From contig NZ_JADQDB010000006.1 in assembly GCF_015694405.1 (NCBI RefSeq), positions 62,001 to 126,000 of the forward strand: a stretch of 64,000 bases of DNA, given 5' to 3'. Positions 51,960 to 64,000 of the stretch are shown here, in pieces. This stretch comes from Pelagibacterium limicola (GTDB lineage Bacteria; Pseudomonadota; Alphaproteobacteria; Rhizobiales; Devosiaceae). Under the pieces are notes generated by a model. It did no database searches and was not told the DNA's origin. It saw nothing but the letters and a program-made list of their open reading frames with translations. Within the stretch, counting starts at the first letter, position 1; every line of letters starts with the position of its first letter. The position numbers and the translations under genes were made by a program.

Positions 51960-51998
51960 GCCGCTTTAGCTCAGTTGGTAGAGCACATCATTCGTAAT
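51960..51998 (+). pseudogene. 5' half of tRNA-Thr(CGU), truncated after the anticodon loop
   Basis: The segment GCCGCTTTAGCTCAG onward matches the intact tRNA at 52097 base for base from 51966 to 51998 and differs only at one acceptor position (T versus A). Identity stops one base after the anticodon loop TTCGTAA. The 3' acceptor strand, T-arm and CCA are missing, so it cannot make a functional tRNA. It probably marks an integration junction. Confidence 0.88.
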
Positions 51999-52096
51999 TA
52001 GCGGGTCCGCTAGAGAATGAGCTTCGAAGCCAGTGGGTTGGCGAAGTGGGTAGTGAATTAGTATTTCTATAGTAGGGTTCGCCCTGCGTTTGGTAA

Positions 52097-52172
52097 GCCG
52101 CATTAGCTCAGTTGGTAGAGCACATCATTCGTAATGATGGGGTCAGGTGTTCGAGTCACCTATGCGGCACCA
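52097..52172 (+). tRNA. tRNA-Thr (anticodon CGU)
   Basis: This 76-base cloverleaf folds fully: acceptor GCCGCAT pairs with ATGCGGC, D-arm AGCTCAGTTGGTAGAGC, anticodon stem CATCA/TGATG with loop TTCGTAA (anticodon CGT), T-arm AGGTG-TTCGAGT-CACCT, discriminator A and encoded CCA. It decodes ACG. It lies 98 bases after the broken copy and may be element-borne. Confidence 0.96.
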
Positions 52173-52281
52173 GCTTCCCTCATCTTTCACTAGGTGAGTA
52201 CGCATGGCGGTTGCAGAAATCGCTGCGTCAGGTTCTGATCGCATCAGCTAAAATAGATTTTACTTCGTTCTTCGTTACCCA

Positions 52282-53855: not shown

Positions 53856-54182
53856 ATGGAGCTTCAACGTCTTTTCGGCGCGAATGTCCGCCATCACCGG
53901 AAGGCCAAGGGCTGGACCCTTGAGCAGCTTTCCGGGCAGACTGGTATTTCACGTGAGACCATCGGCAAGATCGAGCGGGGTGTCGCCGCGCCACTTTTCG
54001 AGACGGCCGAGAAGATAGCGGCGGCGCTAGACGTTCCCGCGCCCACCCTATTCGGTGCCGACGCTGTGCCCGGCGCGGGCGAGCGGGCACGGCTGCTGAC
54101 CGAGATCAACGGTACCCTCTCCCGCATGAACGACGACCAGCTTGGTCGCGCCGCGAAGATGCTGAAAGCGTTTGTAGGGTAG
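53856..54182 (+). CDS. XRE/HTH_3-family repressor
   Basis: This 108-residue protein has a Cro/C1-type helix-turn-helix at 6-58 (LFGANVRHHRKAKGWTLEQL, SGQTGISRETIGKIERGVAA) and a helical C-terminus that may dimerise. It has no peptidase domain, so it is not a LexA-like cleavable repressor. The ATG at 53856 has GAGG upstream. Its role as the island's control switch is inferred from position. Confidence 0.85.
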   Translation: MELQRLFGANVRHHRKAKGWTLEQLSGQTGISRETIGKIERGVAAPLFETAEKIAAALDVPAPTLFGADAVPGAGERARLLTEINGTLSRMNDDQLGRAAKMLKAFVG

Positions 54183-54555: not shown

Positions 54556-56964
54556 TCAGAACGGGACACCTTCTGACGATTCAGGCTCCTCCTGTCGCCG
54601 TCCGGATTCAAGCACACGGTAGTGTTTGATGCCGGAACTGTCGGTCTCGGCCTTGAGGATCATTCCGCCTGCGACTCGACCCATATGCTTCCGTAGAAAT
54701 TTCCCGGCGCTCCGTGTGTTGAACACTCTGCCGTTGGTGTTGGCGATCAGCTCATTGATGATCGCTTGCGCACCTTCATGGCCTTCATCCGAGGCAATGT
54801 GGCCGACTTCACTGAGGCTCAGCTGCCGGTCCTGAAAGACATCACGCCAGAGCCGCAGGAAATCGACCAGAAGCGCTTTGTGCGGATCGTCGGCCATCAC
54901 CAGTTCGCGGGTTAGCTCAGGGTCCGGCTGATCGAGCCAGACCAGAGCCTCGCGGATCAGACCCCACTGCTCGAAGCCGCCAATTTTCTTAAGCGGCTTC
55001 GGTCTGCCCGCCACAATATACGCGCGCAGGATCGTCAGCGCCGCTACGACAAGCTGAGGCCGCGTCTCAGTGGTCTCGGCAATCGCGTCGAAGCTGTACT
55101 CGATTTTATCGGGCCGCTCCTCGCCGGTGTCGATCCGGCAAAAGAGCGTTCGGCGCGTTATGTCGCCCGCAAGTTCGATGTTATTGCCGGTGGCGATGAC
55201 AAGGCTACCGGTAGGCACGTTGGCGACTTCGGATCGACCGAGGATACGCGGCCTCACCTTTTCCTGAGTCAACATCGTGCAAAGGAAATCTCCTTCTATC
55301 GGGCGATCACAATTGTCGATGACAATCACAGGGTCGCCCGCCATCAGCACTGACGACAGCCGCTTTTCGTTCTCCTCATCCGACTTGCCCTGAGACATCA
55401 TCGCGGGTTTATGTCCGGTTGCAATTATGCAGACGATTTCCGAGAGCAGCGACTTGCCGGACCCAGCGGTGGGCGCGTCGAGGGCGATCAGCGGAGCGGA
55501 TGGGAACATGCGACGCACCAGTGCCGTCATAACGGCGGCGAGTGCGACGCTGCGATGCGGTTCGCCACCGAACCGGACTTCGCGGAACGGGCGCTTCAGA
55601 ACCTCCAGCGCCGCGCGAGCCTCCTCCTTCGTCGGGTTGTCGGGAATTCTTGCAAACTCCGTTCGCCCCGGATCGTAGAGAAGGCCAGTATCGGGATCGT
55701 AGCCCTTATCCTGAAGGACGGACCCGTCCGGTCGAAGTGTCGGCGCTTGAATGACGCCTTTCAGGAAACGCAGTCTCCAGTTGCCGACGCGCGCGAGATA
55801 GGCGGTGGCGGCCTCGCTCGGCGGATCAATGGGGACAAACTTCTTTTTCTGCTTTCTGGCCCATCGGGCATGCCGCGCGAATTGTTCCCGCAGCCAAGGT
55901 GACGTCACGGTTTGCAGCACCAGCGCGCCGGTTTCACGCTTGATCCCATCGCTTTCGGCACTGGTCTGAATCCGCGCAACCCGCACCAAGGATTCAAAAC
56001 GCTGGAAAATATCGACGTTATTGTCGATCAAAGCCTGTTCGGCCCGATCCACTGCCTGCGGGAGTTCGCCGGGCCTCACAACGATGGCGTTTGGGTCAAC
56101 CCCATCTCCGTCATCGCTAAGCCATTTCCGGAGCGTCTTTTCCATCGGCTCGATGCCAAGAAATTCGCAGAGGGTGGGGAGACCCCACGTCTCCTCGCCG
56201 GCCTCGAACTTCTCCCGGCTCGCTGCAGCCTTGCCGCCGCGCTTCTCGGCCTCGTCGTCTCCGGCGAGAGAGGCGACATGCATGACCCACGCGTCTATCT
56301 CCTCGTCGGCGAACCCGGCCCGAACAAGCGCCCCCGTGAGAGCAAGACATATATTGTCCCGATTGCCTGTCCCGCGCGGATAGCGTTTCAAAACAACGGA
56401 AAGGAACGCAACGCACCCGGCATAGCGTTCGAGTTCTGCGCCTTCCACCTCGGGGATGTTACGGGGATCGTCGTGCCACCGCAGAAGCTCGCCATTCGGA
56501 TGAACGGAAGGCGGCACCATCGTCTGCATTTTGTTGCCGCGAAGTTCGAGCACAGTGTCTTTGTCAGCACCGAACACATCACTCATATCGGGGGGAATTT
56601 TGTACTGTCGATTTTTCGGCAGCACACCTCTGACAAAGCGGTGGCTGTTCTGCGACGTTGCCCGGCCAAAGCTGGGATACGCGGAAAACACCAGTTTCCC
56701 GACCAGCGCCGCTTCCGACCAATCATTGTCAATGTCGATCAGACCGCTGGAGCGTTCGCCCAAGGCGATACCGACATTGCTTACTGCACCATAGGCAAAG
56801 AACAGCTCCTCGTCGGTTCGTTCGACAACGGTTCCCCATTTGCCCTTAGGAGCCTTTTCACGGGCCGGGAGCACAATAGGCTCCCAGCCCAAAGATTTAT
56901 AGAAGACGGCGGCATCGCCGGGCGTTTTGAACTGCTTTTCGGAAGTGAGGTTGAACTGCGTCAT
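54556..56964 (-). CDS. Primase-polymerase/helicase fusion, element replication protein
   Basis: This 802-residue protein has an N-terminal bifunctional primase-polymerase domain (about 10-200: catalytic D77-x-D79 in GLIDIDND, H108 in SQNSHRF and LRGNK at 141-145) and a C-terminal P-loop ATPase (Walker A APTAGSGKS at 497-505, Walker B VIVIDNCD at 546-553) of the kind used by satellites and plasmids to initiate replication. The ATG at 56964 has GGAGGTGGGG upstream and overlaps the alpA stop (ATGA). It suggests the element can replicate after excision. Confidence 0.85.
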   Translation of the reverse strand: MTQFNLTSEKQFKTPGDAAVFYKSLGWEPIVLPAREKAPKGKWGTVVERTDEELFFAYGAVSNVGIALGERSSGLIDIDNDWSEAALVGKLVFSAYPSFGRATSQNSHRFVRGVLPKNRQYKIPPDMSDVFGADKDTVLELRGNKMQTMVPPSVHPNGELLRWHDDPRNIPEVEGAELERYAGCVAFLSVVLKRYPRGTGNRDNICLALTGALVRAGFADEEIDAWVMHVASLAGDDEAEKRGGKAAASREKFEAGEETWGLPTLCEFLGIEPMEKTLRKWLSDDGDGVDPNAIVVRPGELPQAVDRAEQALIDNNVDIFQRFESLVRVARIQTSAESDGIKRETGALVLQTVTSPWLREQFARHARWARKQKKKFVPIDPPSEAATAYLARVGNWRLRFLKGVIQAPTLRPDGSVLQDKGYDPDTGLLYDPGRTEFARIPDNPTKEEARAALEVLKRPFREVRFGGEPHRSVALAAVMTALVRRMFPSAPLIALDAPTAGSGKSLLSEIVCIIATGHKPAMMSQGKSDEENEKRLSSVLMAGDPVIVIDNCDRPIEGDFLCTMLTQEKVRPRILGRSEVANVPTGSLVIATGNNIELAGDITRRTLFCRIDTGEERPDKIEYSFDAIAETTETRPQLVVAALTILRAYIVAGRPKPLKKIGGFEQWGLIREALVWLDQPDPELTRELVMADDPHKALLVDFLRLWRDVFQDRQLSLSEVGHIASDEGHEGAQAIINELIANTNGRVFNTRSAGKFLRKHMGRVAGGMILKAETDSSGIKHYRVLESGRRQEEPESSEGVPF

Positions 56965-57230
56965 CGCCCCACCTCCTCTGGATTGCATTCGCGCTCTTTG
57001 AGGTATGTCAGGATATCCGACCAACGATAGCGAATTGCTCCTGCACTAAGCCGGAGATACTTCGGTCCCCAACCGTATATCCGACCTTTCTCCAGCCAGG
57101 ACATGCTCATTCCGGTTAGGGTCGCCACCTGTCCGGTGGTCAAGAGTCTTTCAGGATTGGCGGGCTGGCGGATTAAGGCTGAAGTGCTCGCGCCTTCAGG
57201 ACGGGCGCGTGATTTGGTTTCCACATACAT
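56961..57230 (-). CDS. AlpA-like helix-turn-helix regulator
   Basis: This 89-residue protein has a MerR-like HTH_17 domain: RLLTTGQVATLTGMSMSWLE, then KGRIYGWGPKYLRLSAG and RYRWSDILTYLKER, the excisionase/AlpA pattern. AlpA proteins activate integrase or excision genes in satellites. It is coupled to the primase (ATGA). The ATG at 57230 has AGAGG in front. Confidence 0.85.
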   Translation of the reverse strand: MYVETKSRARPEGASTSALIRQPANPERLLTTGQVATLTGMSMSWLEKGRIYGWGPKYLRLSAGAIRYRWSDILTYLKERECNPEEVGR

Positions 57231-57519: not shown

Positions 57520-58032
57520 TTAATTCGGGCGGATGCTGAGATTGTCCCATTCGGCAAGTTCACCGATTATTCGCTGAACCGCCTCCGCTTCCAGCGCCTC
57601 CCGCACTGCGTCTGGCTCCGCGCAAGCAGCATTGCCACGCCTGCGGAACATGTCGCAAAGTACATGGGCGGTCTCCTGCACATCGGCTGCACTGGTACAG
57701 CCCATGACCTCACGCGCTGCGAGGTGTGCCAATTCCAGAATCGTCCGTACCGCGTCGATGGGGGCAACCGAGCAGGAGCGCAACGCGCGCATCTCAACGT
57801 CGCAGACATCCCGCTGTCTCTGCCTCGCCATAAATTGCAGCGCGCGTTCCAAGTCGTGCCCGAACTGTGTCGCCGGCCCGATCAGTGCCATCATCGCGGC
57901 GTCTAGCCGCTCCTGCTGACGGCCTTCGGTTTCGTTGGTCGTATGGGCATTGATAATGGCGAGCAAAACACGTTCCAGCACGCTTGCGCCATCGCAGAAA
58001 TCCGCCCGGCAAATGGAGTCATCAACTGACAT
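57520..58032 (-). CDS. Hypothetical protein between integrase and alpA
   Basis: This 170-residue largely helical protein begins MSVDDSICRADFCDGASVLE and overlaps the integrase end by 11 bases. It contains several cysteines and long Ala/Glu/Arg-rich helices, with no recognised domain. The overlap indicates co-translation with the integrase. The 289 bases between it and alpA hold no clear gene; an inverted pair GCCCTGCC/GGCAGGGC at 57251 and 57321 is the only notable feature there. Confidence 0.6.
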   Translation of the reverse strand: MSVDDSICRADFCDGASVLERVLLAIINAHTTNETEGRQQERLDAAMMALIGPATQFGHDLERALQFMARQRQRDVCDVEMRALRSCSVAPIDAVRTILELAHLAAREVMGCTSAADVQETAHVLCDMFRRRGNAACAEPDAVREALEAEAVQRIIGELAEWDNLSIRPN

Positions 58033-59185
58033 CGGCCAAATCCAATATCCGGGCCGCGACCAGCTCCACCGGGGCGCGCAAACGTTCGGCGTTGACGACG
58101 ATGTAGCCGCCCGTGACGTCGCCATTGGCGCGGTGGTTCAGCAGGCGCTTGAGCGCGTAGTAGGGAACGTCGAGGCTTTCGGCGATGGTGATAAACGTCC
58201 GCCGCAGATCGTGCAGCGTGAAGTTCACGCCCGACCCGGTGCTGACCCGAAGCAGGAACTTCTTGGTTTCCACTAAATGCCCGTTCTTGCCGGGACCGGG
58301 GAATACCCAAGGAGACCCTTCGGTTTGTTCCTTACGCTTTGTCAGCAGGTCCGCGAGGAATGCCGACAAAGGCAGGTTCAGCGGGTCACCGTTCTTGGTT
58401 GTGGGCAGGTGCAGCGTGCGCGCCTGTAGGTCCACGTTTTCCCAGCGCAGCTTCATCAGCTCGCCCCGGCGCATCCCGGTGAACAGCGCCGTGAGCAGGA
58501 AGTCGCGGGAATAGTCCGGCTCGGCCATGACCGCTTTCCACCACATGGGCAGGTCTTGCGCGGTCACCAAGGTCTGCCGCCGCCGCTCGCGATGCCATGC
58601 CCGTGCTTGGCTCAGGATCAGCACCGGGTTCGGTGGATAGTCGTCCTGCGTGGCAGCAATGAAATTGTAGACCGAGCGCAGATGGCGCATCGCGTTGTTG
58701 GCCGTCACCTCGCCGCGCGTTCTGGCAATTTCCTGATGCTTGGCCAGCACCATTTGCCGGGTGATCTGGTTCATGGGCTTTTTGCGCCATGCCTTGAGGT
58801 AGAACTTGGCGGTGCGCCCATAATTAGTGACCGTGTGCGGCGACAGCTTGTTGCGCGCCTCAAAGAACCGTTCGAAGGCCACAGCCAGCGTGACGCGCTC
58901 AGCGGTTTCCTTGCGCTTTTCCTCGTTGGGATTGCGCCCCTCGGCCATTTCCCCCAGCACCGCCAGCGCCTTCTTGCGCGCCACCTCAGGCGCAAACAGA
59001 TCGGCGCGGCCAATGGTCACGCGCCGGGTTGTGCGGTTCACCTGCCCTTCGGCGAAATAGACCTTGGAGCGGCTGCCGACCCGAAGGCCGAAACCGGAAA
59101 GCAGCGTATCGCGGTAGAAGACTTGGCCGCTTGCCGAGAACGGTATGTCGTCAATGGCGCGGCGGGTAAGACGTAAGCTAGGCAT
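58022..59185 (-). CDS. int: Tyrosine-family site-specific integrase
   Basis: This 387-residue recombinase has an N-terminal DUF4102-type arm-DNA-binding domain (1-85), a SAM-like core-binding domain (about 100-190) and a catalytic domain with R239 (TGMRRGE), K264, H325 and R328 (LHDLRRTF), H351 and Y361. It is the P4-like type that targets tRNA genes. It probably inserted the island at tRNA-Thr. It lies about 6 kb from that tRNA with genes on both sides, so it is not at the left end of the element. Confidence 0.93.
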   Translation of the reverse strand: MPSLRLTRRAIDDIPFSASGQVFYRDTLLSGFGLRVGSRSKVYFAEGQVNRTTRRVTIGRADLFAPEVARKKALAVLGEMAEGRNPNEEKRKETAERVTLAVAFERFFEARNKLSPHTVTNYGRTAKFYLKAWRKKPMNQITRQMVLAKHQEIARTRGEVTANNAMRHLRSVYNFIAATQDDYPPNPVLILSQARAWHRERRRQTLVTAQDLPMWWKAVMAEPDYSRDFLLTALFTGMRRGELMKLRWENVDLQARTLHLPTTKNGDPLNLPLSAFLADLLTKRKEQTEGSPWVFPGPGKNGHLVETKKFLLRVSTGSGVNFTLHDLRRTFITIAESLDVPYYALKRLLNHRANGDVTGGYIVVNAERLRAPVELVAARILDLADVS

Positions 59186-59373: not shown

Positions 59374-60891
59374 TTATTGAGCCTGTTGCGCTTGCAGGGC
59401 CTCAATCTCATCCAGACGGCTCGCAGCCCGATAGATCGCACCTCGCAGCACAGCATCGCCATGCGCCGCATCATGCAATCCGTCTAGTAGGTCCAGCAGA
59501 GGCAGAATGTTCTCGAAATCGTCTGGCAGACCTTGGATCGCTCGTGCGATGAGCGAGGGTGCATGGCGATCACCTATACCTTCAATTTGGCCCGCCTGAA
59601 TCTCAGCGGCGACCGGCACCGCCGCACCGGTTGGAGCTGTATAGGCACTACGCTCACCACGTAGCCGCTCCAAGGCACGTTGCTTTGAATTCTGGTAGAC
59701 GCAGTCTGCGCCCTCTAGCGCCTGAACAGCGGCATCGGTTTCTTGACCGCTGAGGCGAACAAAATAGTGAAGCGGCAACCATTGGCGCTGCACGTGCGCA
59801 GAGAGGCAAACATACTCCATCGGCATCCGAACTTGCTCCCTACGCAAGTATGACTTCACCGCCATATCGGCGGTTAGAGCGCGCGCCTCGACCCGCTCAC
59901 GCACCTGCCCGGCAGCATCGACCGCGCGAACATCCCCCACGAGCCGAAGCGTAGGTGCTCCCTCGCGCTCCTCAAACTCTCCTTCGCGAATGAACTCCAA
60001 TTGCTCGGCTAGTTCCCGATCAATTGTTATCTGCCTCTCACCGGCATCCACCGTTCCTTCGCGGGTATCAACAATGAGGGCCTTGTCAGTGCCGATCTCG
60101 GACAGTCGTGCAGCGCTGGACAGGAGCAAGGCGTGCGCCGAACGATCACGTTCGCGCAGCATGGCGAGAAGATCGCCGTACTTAATTCGTGCAGATTGGC
60201 CGGGATAACGGAACAGAATAGTTCCGTCCGTCAGGCCATCGCCGTCTCGGCAGACGATCACGGGGGGCAAGGTGTGCTTCTCAACATGAAGCACACCGAC
60301 TTCAACACCGTCCAAGTCGAGCAGACATTTTGAAAACACCGGCGTTGGCGTGAGAAACGTTTTCACCTTGTCCGCAACAGTCACGATGTCGGTATCACGG
60401 AAGGCTGCATCGGCCAGTCCAACGGCTTTGCATTCGCCATCGGCAACACCAATAAAGACAAAGCCGCCCCTGTTATTAGCCAAACCAGCGATCGCCTTGA
60501 TTATCGGGTTCAGACGTTTTGGATCGAAAGTTTCTTTACATTCCTGCTCGGAAGTTTCGCCATCGGCGAGATACCAGAGTCCATCGGCGCGGCGCTCGAA
60601 TCTGGCGCGCGCTTGGTCGGCTAAGCTTTGTCTTGCCGGGATAACGTTCCCATTGATGGCAACGCCGATTTCAGCAGGCGCGAAAGTAGCAAGAAAAGCA
60701 TCCAAGTCCTCATTCGAAGCTTGCGGCACATCTGGTCCGTAGTCGCCAGTCCGAATGCCGGTGATCCGCCCTGAGTTCACCGGGCGATCCTGTCGATTGA
60801 AGTAAAATTGGATGTCCCGGTTGCGCATGTCGCGCGCAAGCATCGCCTTTATGAGGCCGATTTCCTCGTCGGTGATGCTGCGCTTTGCCAT
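59374..60891 (-). CDS. Schlafen/AlbA_2-domain protein coupled to the nuclease-methyltransferase
   Basis: This 505-residue protein has an N-terminal helical, probably DNA-binding region (1-60, SITDEEIGLIKAMLARDM) and an AlbA_2 (Schlafen core) domain near 114-240, with EQECKETF and AIAGLANNRGGFVFIGVADG. The rest is of unknown fold, with alpha helices near the end (LLDLLDGLHDAAHGDAVLRG). AlbA_2 domains bind or cut nucleic acids. The ATG overlaps the stop of the gene at 60891 (TAATG). I do not know this exact pairing as a named defence system. Confidence 0.78.
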   Translation of the reverse strand: MAKRSITDEEIGLIKAMLARDMRNRDIQFYFNRQDRPVNSGRITGIRTGDYGPDVPQASNEDLDAFLATFAPAEIGVAINGNVIPARQSLADQARARFERRADGLWYLADGETSEQECKETFDPKRLNPIIKAIAGLANNRGGFVFIGVADGECKAVGLADAAFRDTDIVTVADKVKTFLTPTPVFSKCLLDLDGVEVGVLHVEKHTLPPVIVCRDGDGLTDGTILFRYPGQSARIKYGDLLAMLRERDRSAHALLLSSAARLSEIGTDKALIVDTREGTVDAGERQITIDRELAEQLEFIREGEFEEREGAPTLRLVGDVRAVDAAGQVRERVEARALTADMAVKSYLRREQVRMPMEYVCLSAHVQRQWLPLHYFVRLSGQETDAAVQALEGADCVYQNSKQRALERLRGERSAYTAPTGAAVPVAAEIQAGQIEGIGDRHAPSLIARAIQGLPDDFENILPLLDLLDGLHDAAHGDAVLRGAIYRAASRLDEIEALQAQQAQ

Positions 60892-63746
60892 TACGCCTCT
60901 TCCAATGCAATTTCCTCACCGTCGTTAATTTCAGGAAGCGCTTCATCGCCCCGACCGTCGATGGCATTGTTGAATGCCATCATTGCGCTTCCCATTAAGT
61001 CTATTGCTTGCCGCTGCCCGTTTCGTGCTTCCACAAGGCGAGCGATTAGGGCCAGCTGGGCTTCGCGATCAGGCGGAAACGCAATCTCCAAGTCTTCAAA
61101 ATCTCCGACCTGGGTGCGTCGGCGATTGCTGTGTCCAGTCGTAATCGCCCGGAAGGCCCGCTGATAGTAACGACTGCGCAGGAGGCAAGAGAGGAACACC
61201 GGATCCAGTCGGTCGTCGGTGATCTCGTAGATCGGAAATTCCTTCGTGACGAGCGCCCCGTCAAACTCGGGCGGGACGACCGCAACGCATCCTTTCCAGA
61301 GGTCAATGGAGCTGAACACCACATCGCCAGCGCGCGCGGCGAACCATGTTGAAGGTATATCCTCGAAATACATGCCGAGCCATTCCGGTGGGTTACGCCC
61401 CTTGCCAGCCTCGCGCGGTCGGATTTCGCCCGTCTGCCCAAGCGTCATCACAACGACGCGCTCGTCCGGGCGCGTTTCTGGGTTTACTTGAACCATGCGC
61501 CGCCGCAGCACATCCCGGATCGGCATCTTCACCCAGCCGTCTGGAACGACATTTTGCTCCTCTCGTTTGAACAGGTGGTATTTCGGATCGAGGCGATGGC
61601 TCGGATGAGCGCGCCAAAGTTCGCCTGCCGAAATTGCCATGCAGTCGGGCGATTTACGACCCGCGTAGTTTTCGGGGTCGGCGCGGAACGCTCGATACTC
61701 TCCGAGTATCGTCCCTTCCTGATCGTCCACCAATCTGCCGCCAGCAGAGCCGCGATATAAGTCGTTCAAATCCGAGTGAATGCCCGTGGACGTGTAGCCG
61801 ACCCAATTTGCCTCTGCGAGAAACACTTTGTAGTCCATCGCATCGAGCGCCATCGCGACCGCTTCTTCCTCGGATGCGCCATTCTCAAGCGCTTCATCAT
61901 AAACCTGATTAAACGCGGTTTTTTGCCATTTTTGGAACTTACGGAAATACAGTATCGACGTCTTGTTCTGTGCACCCGACTTGCGGAATGCGTAGTCAGG
62001 CAGCGACACAATAGCCTCGATCAAGCCATTCTTTGCGAGATACCTGCGCACCGAGGGGCAGTTGCTCTGCTCGCCCTGATTGTTGAACAGGCCATCGGGC
62101 AAGATCAGGCCAAGCTCGCCGCCCGGCTCAAGGAAATCGACCGACCGTTCTAGGATGACGTGCTCGGACGCGACCTTGGTCCGGTTATCGGCCACCTTAA
62201 ACGACTCAAGCGTGTTAGCCCCGAGGTGGTCATCATCACCCGCCTGCACCTCGTCACCGAAGGGCGGGTTGCCAAACAGCTTCGTAAACTTGTCCTTCGG
62301 CGGGTTCAGACGCGGATGAGCGAATACAACGTCAAGGCACGATCGATCTGCCTCGATATTCGTATGGCCGTCATGGTGTAGCAGCAGATTGATCTTGCAG
62401 ATGCGCCCGAGAATGTCATGTATCTCGATACCGAAAACGTTGGTGCGGGAGAAATCCATCTTCGCCCGGTTGATCTCGTTCTCCGGTTGCCCCTCGTACT
62501 CGCGGTCGATCTTGTGCCAGACCTGCAGCAGGGCTTCTAGCAAGAATCCACCGCTGCCAGCAGTCGGGTCGATGACGTAGTCGGTTTCCCCGATGCCAAG
62601 CATGGCAACCGTGAACCGCGACAACTGGCGCATCGTGAAATACTGCCCAAGCTCTCCGCGAAACACCGCTCCGAAGAAGTTTTCAAAGGCCGCGCCGATG
62701 CTATCGACGTCTGTCCGCAGGAAACTCACCTCTTGCAAGGTCAGAACGATCTCGTAGATCTTCTTGTCTGTCAGGCGAATGCGAGCGTTTGCGGGGAAGA
62801 TTGTAGGGTCCTGCTTGCACGCCTGCGCAAATAGAGTGTGGACGCGCCCAGCGACGGCGGCGGTAGTCTCGTTGGTGCCGACCTGAAAGTGCCGGAACTC
62901 GCCGGAACGGCGATTGCGTTCGTCGACCACCTTCGCAAACAAGAGTTTGCTCCACTCATCGAACGAGGTCAGGGGGTCACGTTTACCACCGGCCCAGATA
63001 AGTGAGTGTACACGCTTGATCTTGGCTTCAAGCAGGTGTGAGGCAACGGGATGGATATCCATCTCGCTGCCCGCGACGTAGGCATAGGCCGGAACCTCAC
63101 CAAACTGCTCGGGCACCGCATCGCGCCCGCCGAGCAGATTTCGCTGGCGTTCCGTAGGCTCGAAGTTGCCTACATCGTAGAAGCGTGACTCCCCATACTC
63201 CTCGTACAGGCCGAGGGGAATGCGCAGGGAGTTGGCATTGCCAAAAAGTTGCTCGACGCCCTGATCCCGCCCCGCCCTCGATTGCACATCGCTCTTACAC
63301 TCAACGACGAGATAAGGATCGCGGCAGGCTTCGTCGCGGTAAACGACGATGTCGGCAAAGTCGCTTGGAGTACGACGAGGCACCTGTACCTCAACCCGCA
63401 TCTGAGTCGCAGGATACTTCTTATCGATCACCAAGTTTGCGATAGCGATGCAGCGAACCCATTCTTCGGGGTCACTCCACGCATACGATTTCTTGTGGTT
63501 AAGGTGGTAAGTTACCTTTCCGCTGGCAATCTCAATTACTCCGCGCGCGACGCACTCCGCTACGTTGGCGTTCTCGATTGCAATTTCTGGCGTCAGCTTC
63601 ATTTGTTCATCCCAGCCTTCTTCGCGGGGACAATCTCTGAATGCTGCTTTTGTGTCAAGAGCGGATATAAGAGCGGTTCGCTCAGAAAGCACGGACGCCA
63701 TCGGCGATTTGCTTTTATCTATCTGAATAATAGATGTTTTTTCCAC
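60891..63746 (-). CDS. Single-chain nuclease / N6-adenine methyltransferase / specificity protein
   Basis: This 951-residue protein (GTG start at 63746 with AGGGG before it; ATG 63779 is an alternative) has a PD-(D/E)xK nuclease near 120-160 (D132 in FADIVVY, E149-C-K151 in VVECKSD) like the HsdR N-terminus, then an HsdM-type methyltransferase (GELGQYFTMRQLSRF, DPTAGSGG at 393-400, NPPF at 493-496), and a C-terminal HsdS-like recognition domain (FAARAGDVVFSSIDLWKG; FPPDREAQLALIARLVEA). No translocase helicase is present. That makes it MmeI/type IIG-like in layout. It cuts and methylates presumably at one site; the target is unknown. Confidence 0.82.
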   Translation of the reverse strand: MEKTSIIQIDKSKSPMASVLSERTALISALDTKAAFRDCPREEGWDEQMKLTPEIAIENANVAECVARGVIEIASGKVTYHLNHKKSYAWSDPEEWVRCIAIANLVIDKKYPATQMRVEVQVPRRTPSDFADIVVYRDEACRDPYLVVECKSDVQSRAGRDQGVEQLFGNANSLRIPLGLYEEYGESRFYDVGNFEPTERQRNLLGGRDAVPEQFGEVPAYAYVAGSEMDIHPVASHLLEAKIKRVHSLIWAGGKRDPLTSFDEWSKLLFAKVVDERNRRSGEFRHFQVGTNETTAAVAGRVHTLFAQACKQDPTIFPANARIRLTDKKIYEIVLTLQEVSFLRTDVDSIGAAFENFFGAVFRGELGQYFTMRQLSRFTVAMLGIGETDYVIDPTAGSGGFLLEALLQVWHKIDREYEGQPENEINRAKMDFSRTNVFGIEIHDILGRICKINLLLHHDGHTNIEADRSCLDVVFAHPRLNPPKDKFTKLFGNPPFGDEVQAGDDDHLGANTLESFKVADNRTKVASEHVILERSVDFLEPGGELGLILPDGLFNNQGEQSNCPSVRRYLAKNGLIEAIVSLPDYAFRKSGAQNKTSILYFRKFQKWQKTAFNQVYDEALENGASEEEAVAMALDAMDYKVFLAEANWVGYTSTGIHSDLNDLYRGSAGGRLVDDQEGTILGEYRAFRADPENYAGRKSPDCMAISAGELWRAHPSHRLDPKYHLFKREEQNVVPDGWVKMPIRDVLRRRMVQVNPETRPDERVVVMTLGQTGEIRPREAGKGRNPPEWLGMYFEDIPSTWFAARAGDVVFSSIDLWKGCVAVVPPEFDGALVTKEFPIYEITDDRLDPVFLSCLLRSRYYQRAFRAITTGHSNRRRTQVGDFEDLEIAFPPDREAQLALIARLVEARNGQRQAIDLMGSAMMAFNNAIDGRGDEALPEINDGEEIALEEA

Positions 63747-63781
63747 AATCAAACCCCTGCCACAAAACCCTATGTGCATAT

Positions 63782-63885: not shown

Positions 63886-64000
63886 ATGAGTGACATCAAA
63901 CTTTTCCGAACGGACAGCGCTTCAGTTGTCGAGCTGCGCGGTAGCGCGGTTGCACTAGAAAAATCGCTGCAGACCCTGATTGAACGCAACATGGAAGCGT
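63886..64000 (+). CDS. DUF5655/NucS-like nuclease, N-terminal part (cut by window edge)
   Basis: The first 38 codons begin MSDIKLFRTDSASVVELRGS and continue AVALEKSLQTLIERNME, which match the start of a family that carries a NucS/Mrr-like PD-(D/E)xK domain followed by DUF5655. The ATG has GGGGGA upstream. The catalytic part lies beyond the right edge, so the family call rests on the N-terminus only. It is divergent from the nuclease-methyltransferase operon. Confidence 0.65.
   Translation, partial: MSDIKLFRTDSASVVELRGSAVALEKSLQTLIERNMEA

Follow-up and report, generated by a model that had tools for sequence, protein, structure and literature searches.

A Type IIG restriction enzyme and a Schlafen-fold AlbA_2 partner, a possible backup effector, on a tRNA-Thr-integrated element of Pelagibacterium limicola

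Restriction often fails against phages that carry anti-restriction proteins or modified DNA. To our knowledge, the backup RNases linked to restriction-modification (RM) systems are mainly HEPN proteins such as PrrC. A 64,000-nucleotide stretch of the P. limicola genome (hereafter, the window) encodes a single polypeptide composed of nuclease, methyltransferase and specificity parts, and the stop codon of its gene overlaps the start codon of a gene for an AlbA_2 protein. This arrangement raises the question of whether the two proteins form an obligatory pair, as the original prediction had it, or whether the AlbA_2 protein is an accessory of the enzyme, and, if so, of what kind. The genes and the parts of the fused enzyme are located as follows.

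60891..63746, (-): restriction-modification-specificity (R-M-S) fusion enzyme of Type IIG organisation, 951 aa, GTG start at 63746
63216..63470, (-): HSDR_N_2 PD-(D/E)xK nuclease domain of the fusion, with D132, E149 and K151 (951-aa numbering)
61920..62705, (-): gamma-class N6-adenine methyltransferase domain (N6_Mtase) of the fusion, with DPTAGSGG and NPPF
60993..61364, (-): single HsdS-like target-recognition domain (TRD), C-terminal part and the next helix, recognised by HsdS-like profiles
60889..60893, (-): TAATG junction, in which the fusion stop overlaps the AlbA_2 start by 1 nt
59374..60891, (-): SLFN_AlbA_2 protein of three-part architecture, 505 aa

The coordinates, strand, domain content and TAATG junction agree with those originally given. 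The GTG at 63746 is a better candidate for the start of the fusion than the in-frame ATG at 63779, which would give a protein of 962 aa, because GGCAGGGG stands just before the GTG and an equivalent start fits the relatives in Ciceribacter lividus (L004) and in a Rhodobiaceae metagenome-assembled genome (MAG, L005); no ribosome-binding site is visible in front of the ATG. Pfam searches with the 962-aa reading placed HSDR_N_2 at residues 104-188 (1e-12) and N6_Mtase at 359-620 (1.3e-24), and returned no match to a helicase family. The C-terminus of the fusion (approximately 806-929) matched HsdS-like profiles (PADLOC Specificity_I, 3e-17), and solved S subunits matched residues 778-905 in the 951-aa numbering. 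The Pfam and HsdS-like profile matches thus bear out the predicted R-M-S fusion devoid of a helicase. The D132...E149-x-K151, DPTxGSGG and NPPF motifs are invariant in three to four homologues of the fusion, with identities ranging from 48% to 100%, the most distant being that of Collinsella aerofaciens (Actinomycetota; 48%). Between the window and C. lividus enzymes 49.8% of fourfold sites differ versus 9.6% of amino acids, which indicates strong purifying selection and excludes a chance open reading frame. The scan of viral contigs with the fusion profile gave no match.

Its domain organisation places the fusion among the Type IIG (R~M~S) enzymes, of which it is an ordinary member. The PD-(D/E)xK nuclease and the gamma-class adenine methyltransferase reside in one chain, with one HsdS-like TRD at the C-terminus of the same chain, and this layout fits the description of Type IIG enzymes as an N-terminal cleavage domain, a gamma-class methyltransferase and a TRD, without a translocase (PMC3874165). 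The same order of parts is found in Eco57I and HaeIV, as well as in the IIB relatives RM.BsaXI/BcgI and AloI/TstI. The best solved match to the fusion was RM.BsaXI (3e-24); type I M subunits came next, and S subunits matched the C-terminus. Nevertheless, BsaXI relies on a separate S subunit with two TRDs, and AloI and TstI contain two TRDs, whereas the fusion is one polypeptide with a single HsdS-like TRD; its sequence is remote from every solved IIG enzyme and, unlike the named ones, it is trailed by an AlbA_2 gene. HaeIV, also a single-TRD enzyme, is described as a probable homodimer acting on a bipartite site that is symmetric (PMC3874165), and from its single TRD the fused enzyme is probably a homodimer with a symmetric bipartite site as well. 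It would be a self-sufficient R-M enzyme (R~gammaM~single TRD) that methylates adenine within the bipartite site and, where DNA lacks this modification, cleaves it at a fixed distance with no need to translocate. Taken alone, it would represent a compact new restriction specificity, otherwise ordinary.

Other assignments of the fused enzyme were considered. Its original comparison to fused R-M-S enzymes such as MmeI was apt for the Type IIG kind but not for the MmeI family: only MmeI_Mtase was matched, at 18.7 bits versus a cut-off of 27, the remaining MmeI domains (N, hel, TRD, C) were unmatched, and the closer solved kin is BsaXI. The methyltransferases of MADS (MAD2), BREX and DISARM have an N6 methyltransferase core related to that of the fusion (MAD2 profile, 8.6e-56). 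Classification as MADS was rejected, as the MAD2 profile scored 189.5 bits versus a cut-off of 720 and the accompanying mad genes are absent, a sub-threshold echo of the S subunit (MAD5) being the only other trace. Concerning Type I R-M, an SF2 translocase and a separate HsdR are absent from the fusion and from its neighbours inside the element that carries it.

The second gene of the pair is the sole SLFN_AlbA_2 gene of the host genome. Its product consists of three parts, the first of which is termed HTH-like from its predicted helix pattern.

60682..60891, (-): N-terminal HTH-like adaptor domain, residues 1-70, also present in DUF3644/HEPN proteins and in one metallo-beta-lactamase-like protein
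60193..60558, (-): Schlafen/AlbA_2 domain, residues 112-233 (Pfam SLFN_AlbA_2, 9e-11), with E112, E117 and D151
59380..59871, (-): C-terminal all-helical domain, residues 341-504, a confident model prediction

Both the profile search and the model of the central domain (about 88-242) point to the Schlafen core fold. The profile search retrieved Schlafen 5, 8, 11, 12 and 14 chains together with 5yd0, the entry of the SLFN13 N-domain, and the modelled fold matched SLFN5 (Z 9.9), the tRNase domain of SAMD9 (Z 9.4), SLFN11 and SLFN13. The residues E112 and E117 are invariant in the family, with the five-residue spacing of the essential E205 and E210 of SLFN13, and D151 aligns with D248 of SLFN13, completing the counterpart of its acidic triad; this aspartate is kept in all family members but two (E in L025, P in L055). 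The C-terminal domain, modelled with a pLDDT of 88, had no convincing fold match (best Z 4.7). The Schlafen/SAMD9 tRNases (SLFN11, SLFN13, SLFN14), TrlG and the BREX-linked Schlafens share with the AlbA_2 partner the core fold and the E-x4-E plus D residues. In contrast to these proteins, a single Schlafen lobe is placed here between the HTH-like adaptor and the helical C-terminal domain, and the HATPase or wHTH C-terminus of the TrlG and BREX-linked forms is missing. No PADLOC defence model covered the AlbA_2 protein (best PDC-M02B, E 0.017), although two of its distant relatives weakly matched PDC-S50. No relative of the AlbA_2 protein or of its adaptor domain was found in phage genome records, and the scan for promoters and terminators gave fewer predicted sites than shuffled sequences.

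The N-terminal domain is shared with proteins bearing other effectors. The search with a hand-made consensus of the 70 N-terminal residues of the family found it at the N-termini of DUF3644 proteins encoded on Phaeobacter, Rhizobium, Falsirhodobacter and Pseudorhodobacter plasmids (E 4e-10 to 6e-7), and the comparison of profiles built from real sequences (hhalign) supported its relation to the DUF3644 N-termini with a probability of 99.5%. These adaptor-bearing proteins contain the HEPN RNase motif R-x4-H. The DUF3644/HEPN proteins are a single-gene defence candidate in PADLOC (PDC-S19), whose profile leaves out the N-terminal domain; several alphaproteobacterial plasmid members carry the same adaptor as the AlbA_2 partner but a HEPN effector instead of the Schlafen one. 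In Tistrella the domain joined to the adaptor is metallo-beta-lactamase-like, with an HxDxDH motif and a weak match in Pfam, and a HEPN_LA2681 gene lies next to this gene. The loci sharing the adaptor, all on plasmids of Alphaproteobacteria, are L065-L069, L073 and L075. The fusion of the HTH-like domain to Schlafen, DUF3644/HEPN and metallo-beta-lactamase-like domains makes it look like an adaptor with exchangeable nucleases. HEPN families overlapping DUF3644 have been described in R-M operons, some with an N-terminal wHTH (PMC3710099).

The obligatory pairing of the fused enzyme with the AlbA_2 protein is refuted by its relatives. The C. lividus enzyme, 90% identical and at the same island position, is followed by a short intergenic stretch and then the integrase, and neither an AlbA_2 gene nor its remnant was found behind it; the Collinsella enzyme, 48% identical, also stands without an AlbA_2 gene, and the motifs of both enzymes are intact. 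The pair is conserved between the window and the Rhodobiaceae element but not in Ciceribacter or Collinsella, and AlbA_2 relatives are also encoded beside restriction systems of other types or by themselves. Relatives of equal architecture form about 14 distinct lineages. R-M genes adjoin the AlbA_2 gene in about five of these 14, a raw count in which defence islands may give such adjacency by chance. As a rough expectation, only ~1% of random genes would lie that near an R-M gene. The arrangements with R-M genes, the window included, are the following.

Window element: AlbA_2 gene behind the Type IIG fusion, 1-nt overlap
L023: AlbA_2 relative behind a type III mod gene, 3-nt gap
L026: AlbA_2 relative, apparently frameshifted, behind type I M-S-R genes
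L057: AlbA_2 relative in a type III operon that also encodes an LmuB-like ATPase
L058: AlbA_2 relative with an HEC-07 gene 20 nt upstream and a convergent gene for an MmeI-type enzyme at 0.5 kb

The last of these encodes the nearest relative of the window AlbA_2 protein (62% identity). A shorter AlbA_2 protein is encoded behind a type I M-S-R set on a Psychrobacter plasmid. Over half of the family (L024, L025, L027, L044, L045, L055, L056 and L059) has no R-M neighbour; in L024 the gene adjoins an AIPR/AbiU-like gene. In L028 (11690-15667), a 1325-aa Mrr-like/TPR-S/GreAB-C/PIN protein is encoded directly upstream of a decayed AlbA_2 relative. On the Rhizobium plasmid pHM2 (L063, 6869-13899), an AlbA_2 gene has in its vicinity RloB, a gene for abortive infection and one for a large DNA methyltransferase. 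As AlbA_2 relatives occur with several different restriction systems, the AlbA_2 partner is probably an add-on, a further layer of phage defence that the fused enzyme can do without.

What would such an add-on do? We give about even credence to the view that a mobile element integrated at tRNA-Thr carries, as its cargo, an operon for a Type IIG enzyme and an accessory AlbA_2 effector, which would serve as a PrrC-like backup RNase. The AlbA_2 protein, with its DNA-binding-like HTH adaptor, Schlafen-fold RNase-type domain and helical C-terminal domain, would be translated off the message of the restriction gene via stop-start coupling and would most likely be kept in check as long as restriction is effective. 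Once a phage had overcome or swamped the restriction enzyme, the AlbA_2 protein would cleave tRNA or other RNA, leading to the arrest of growth, a logic like that of PrrC with EcoprrI. The analysis shows the anatomy of the operon, the conserved catalytic residues, the mobility and the exchange of partners and effectors; that the protein is an RNase, that the RM enzyme silences it and what releases it are inferred. PrrC has been described as an RM guardian (PMC12707154), R-M-linked HEPN RNases have been proposed to be kept silent, like PrrC, by the R-M enzyme (PMC3710099), Schlafen RNases have been reported to be auxiliary effectors beside BREX (PMC12839542), and TrlG, a bacterial AlbA_2 protein, restricts Photorhabdus growth at high temperature (PMC7554251). 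As in PrrC/EcoprrI and the R-M-linked HEPN RNases, where an RNase-type effector gene within the R-M operon is the proposed second line of defence (PMC12707154, PMC3710099), the effector gene lies within the R-M operon, directly so in the window and in L023. The known effectors are of the HEPN/ABC-ATPase type, whereas the AlbA_2 partner is of the Schlafen fold and tied to a Type IIG enzyme, which may silence it. No description of an AlbA_2 or Schlafen partner for Type IIG enzymes was found in the literature searched. We regard the AlbA_2 partner as an accessory of a moderately new kind, a Schlafen protein in the place that HEPN RNases take in other R-M operons, with an adaptor domain common to both.

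Several observations count against the backup-RNase reading, namely the AlbA_2 lineages without an RM neighbour, the persistence of the RM enzyme without its partner in Ciceribacter and Collinsella, and the replacement of the third acidic residue in L025 and L055. Moreover, DNA-binding is the annotation given to many AlbA_2 proteins of bacteria, and folds of the Alba type bind nucleic acid but leave it uncut, which speaks against an RNase. In the main rival reading, the AlbA_2 gene would by itself provide a defence or addiction effector independent of the enzyme, behind which it happens to have settled in the cargo slot, co-transcribed but functionally uncoupled. Most relatives stand by themselves or adjoin defence genes of another kind, for example the AIPR/AbiU-like gene of L024 and the Mrr-TPR-GreAB-PIN gene of L028, the close C. 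lividus relative has the enzyme without AlbA_2, and defence genes cluster in islands by chance. We see this as a real but rather doubtful possibility, given the 1-nt overlap with the fusion and the 3-nt spacing behind the type III mod gene, the position of AlbA_2 genes directly behind RM genes of at least three types, and the apparent movement of the RM enzyme, AlbA_2 and PDC-S18 genes between elements as one block (see below).

The roles of a pure controller and of an essential subunit are less likely than those of a backup RNase or an independent effector. That the AlbA_2 protein controls the expression of the restriction enzyme in the manner of a C protein, one of the roles originally suggested, would agree with its N-terminal HTH-like domain and with the common annotation of AlbA_2 as DNA-binding (PMC6299218). 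This is nonetheless unlikely, since the gene is the last of the operon, not the first, the enzyme occurs without it in Ciceribacter and Collinsella, the Schlafen nuclease residues, needless in a regulator, are kept, and the HTH-like domain is also fused to HEPN and metallo-beta-lactamase-like domains. The RNase-type residues and the effector-swap architecture favour, of the originally proposed roles, the second effector over the control factor. The translational coupling and the tight co-conservation between the window and the Rhodobiaceae element might even suggest an essential subunit of the restriction enzyme. We find this highly improbable, as the Ciceribacter and Collinsella enzymes lack AlbA_2 while retaining all motifs, and Type IIG enzymes built in this way work by themselves or together with additional methyltransferases (PMC3874165).

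Should the backup-RNase reading be true, a Schlafen counterpart linked to types I, IIG and III would extend the backup-RNase logic to the family of animal antiviral tRNases, and the shared adaptor domain would provide a handle for finding more members and probing their activation. A broader version, in which the HTH-like adaptor with swappable nucleases is a general mobile guard that docks on type I, IIG and III enzymes, senses the failure of restriction and stops translation, is more speculative, and we put it forward only tentatively.

The operon is part of an integrative element, which encodes an integrase and is bounded by direct att repeats, one of them in a tRNA gene. Its remaining features in the window are these.

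52127..52179, (+): att repeat, 53 bp, 3' part of tRNA-Thr (52097-52172)
53856..54182, (+): HTH_3 regulator
54556..57024, (-): Prim-Pol primase
58022..59185, (-): tyrosine integrase
63886..64000, (+): start of the divergent neighbour of the fusion (NucS_C and DUF5655, PADLOC candidate PDC-S18), which ends at the equivalent of 64815, beyond the window (L002, 13886-14815)

The second att copy is found beyond the window (positions equivalent to 66747-66799); the two copies differ by five mismatches over 53 bp and flank 14.6 kb. Between the two copies are the genes for the HTH regulator, the Prim-Pol primase, the tyrosine integrase, the AlbA_2 protein, the fused enzyme and the NucS_C/DUF5655 protein, a TauD-like gene and an unknown gene. 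The same att sequence is present beside the related elements of C. lividus and the Rhodobiaceae MAG, and a PDC-S18-type NucS_C/DUF5655 gene adjoins the fused enzyme, in an unchanged position, in all three elements. The fourfold divergence between the window and the Rhodobiaceae element is about 1-2% in the enzyme, AlbA_2 and PDC-S18 genes versus 15% in the integrase and 23% in the primase; the simplest reading of this difference is that the three genes were exchanged as a unit on a diverged backbone. In Ciceribacter, a UvrD-like helicase gene (L004, 3704-5632) occupies the place of the TauD-like and unknown genes, showing variable cargo beside the att site. The 5' half of tRNA-Thr is partly repeated over 48 bp (51960-52007; L002, 1960-2007) immediately upstream of the complete gene, and this fragment is perhaps the trace of an earlier integration.
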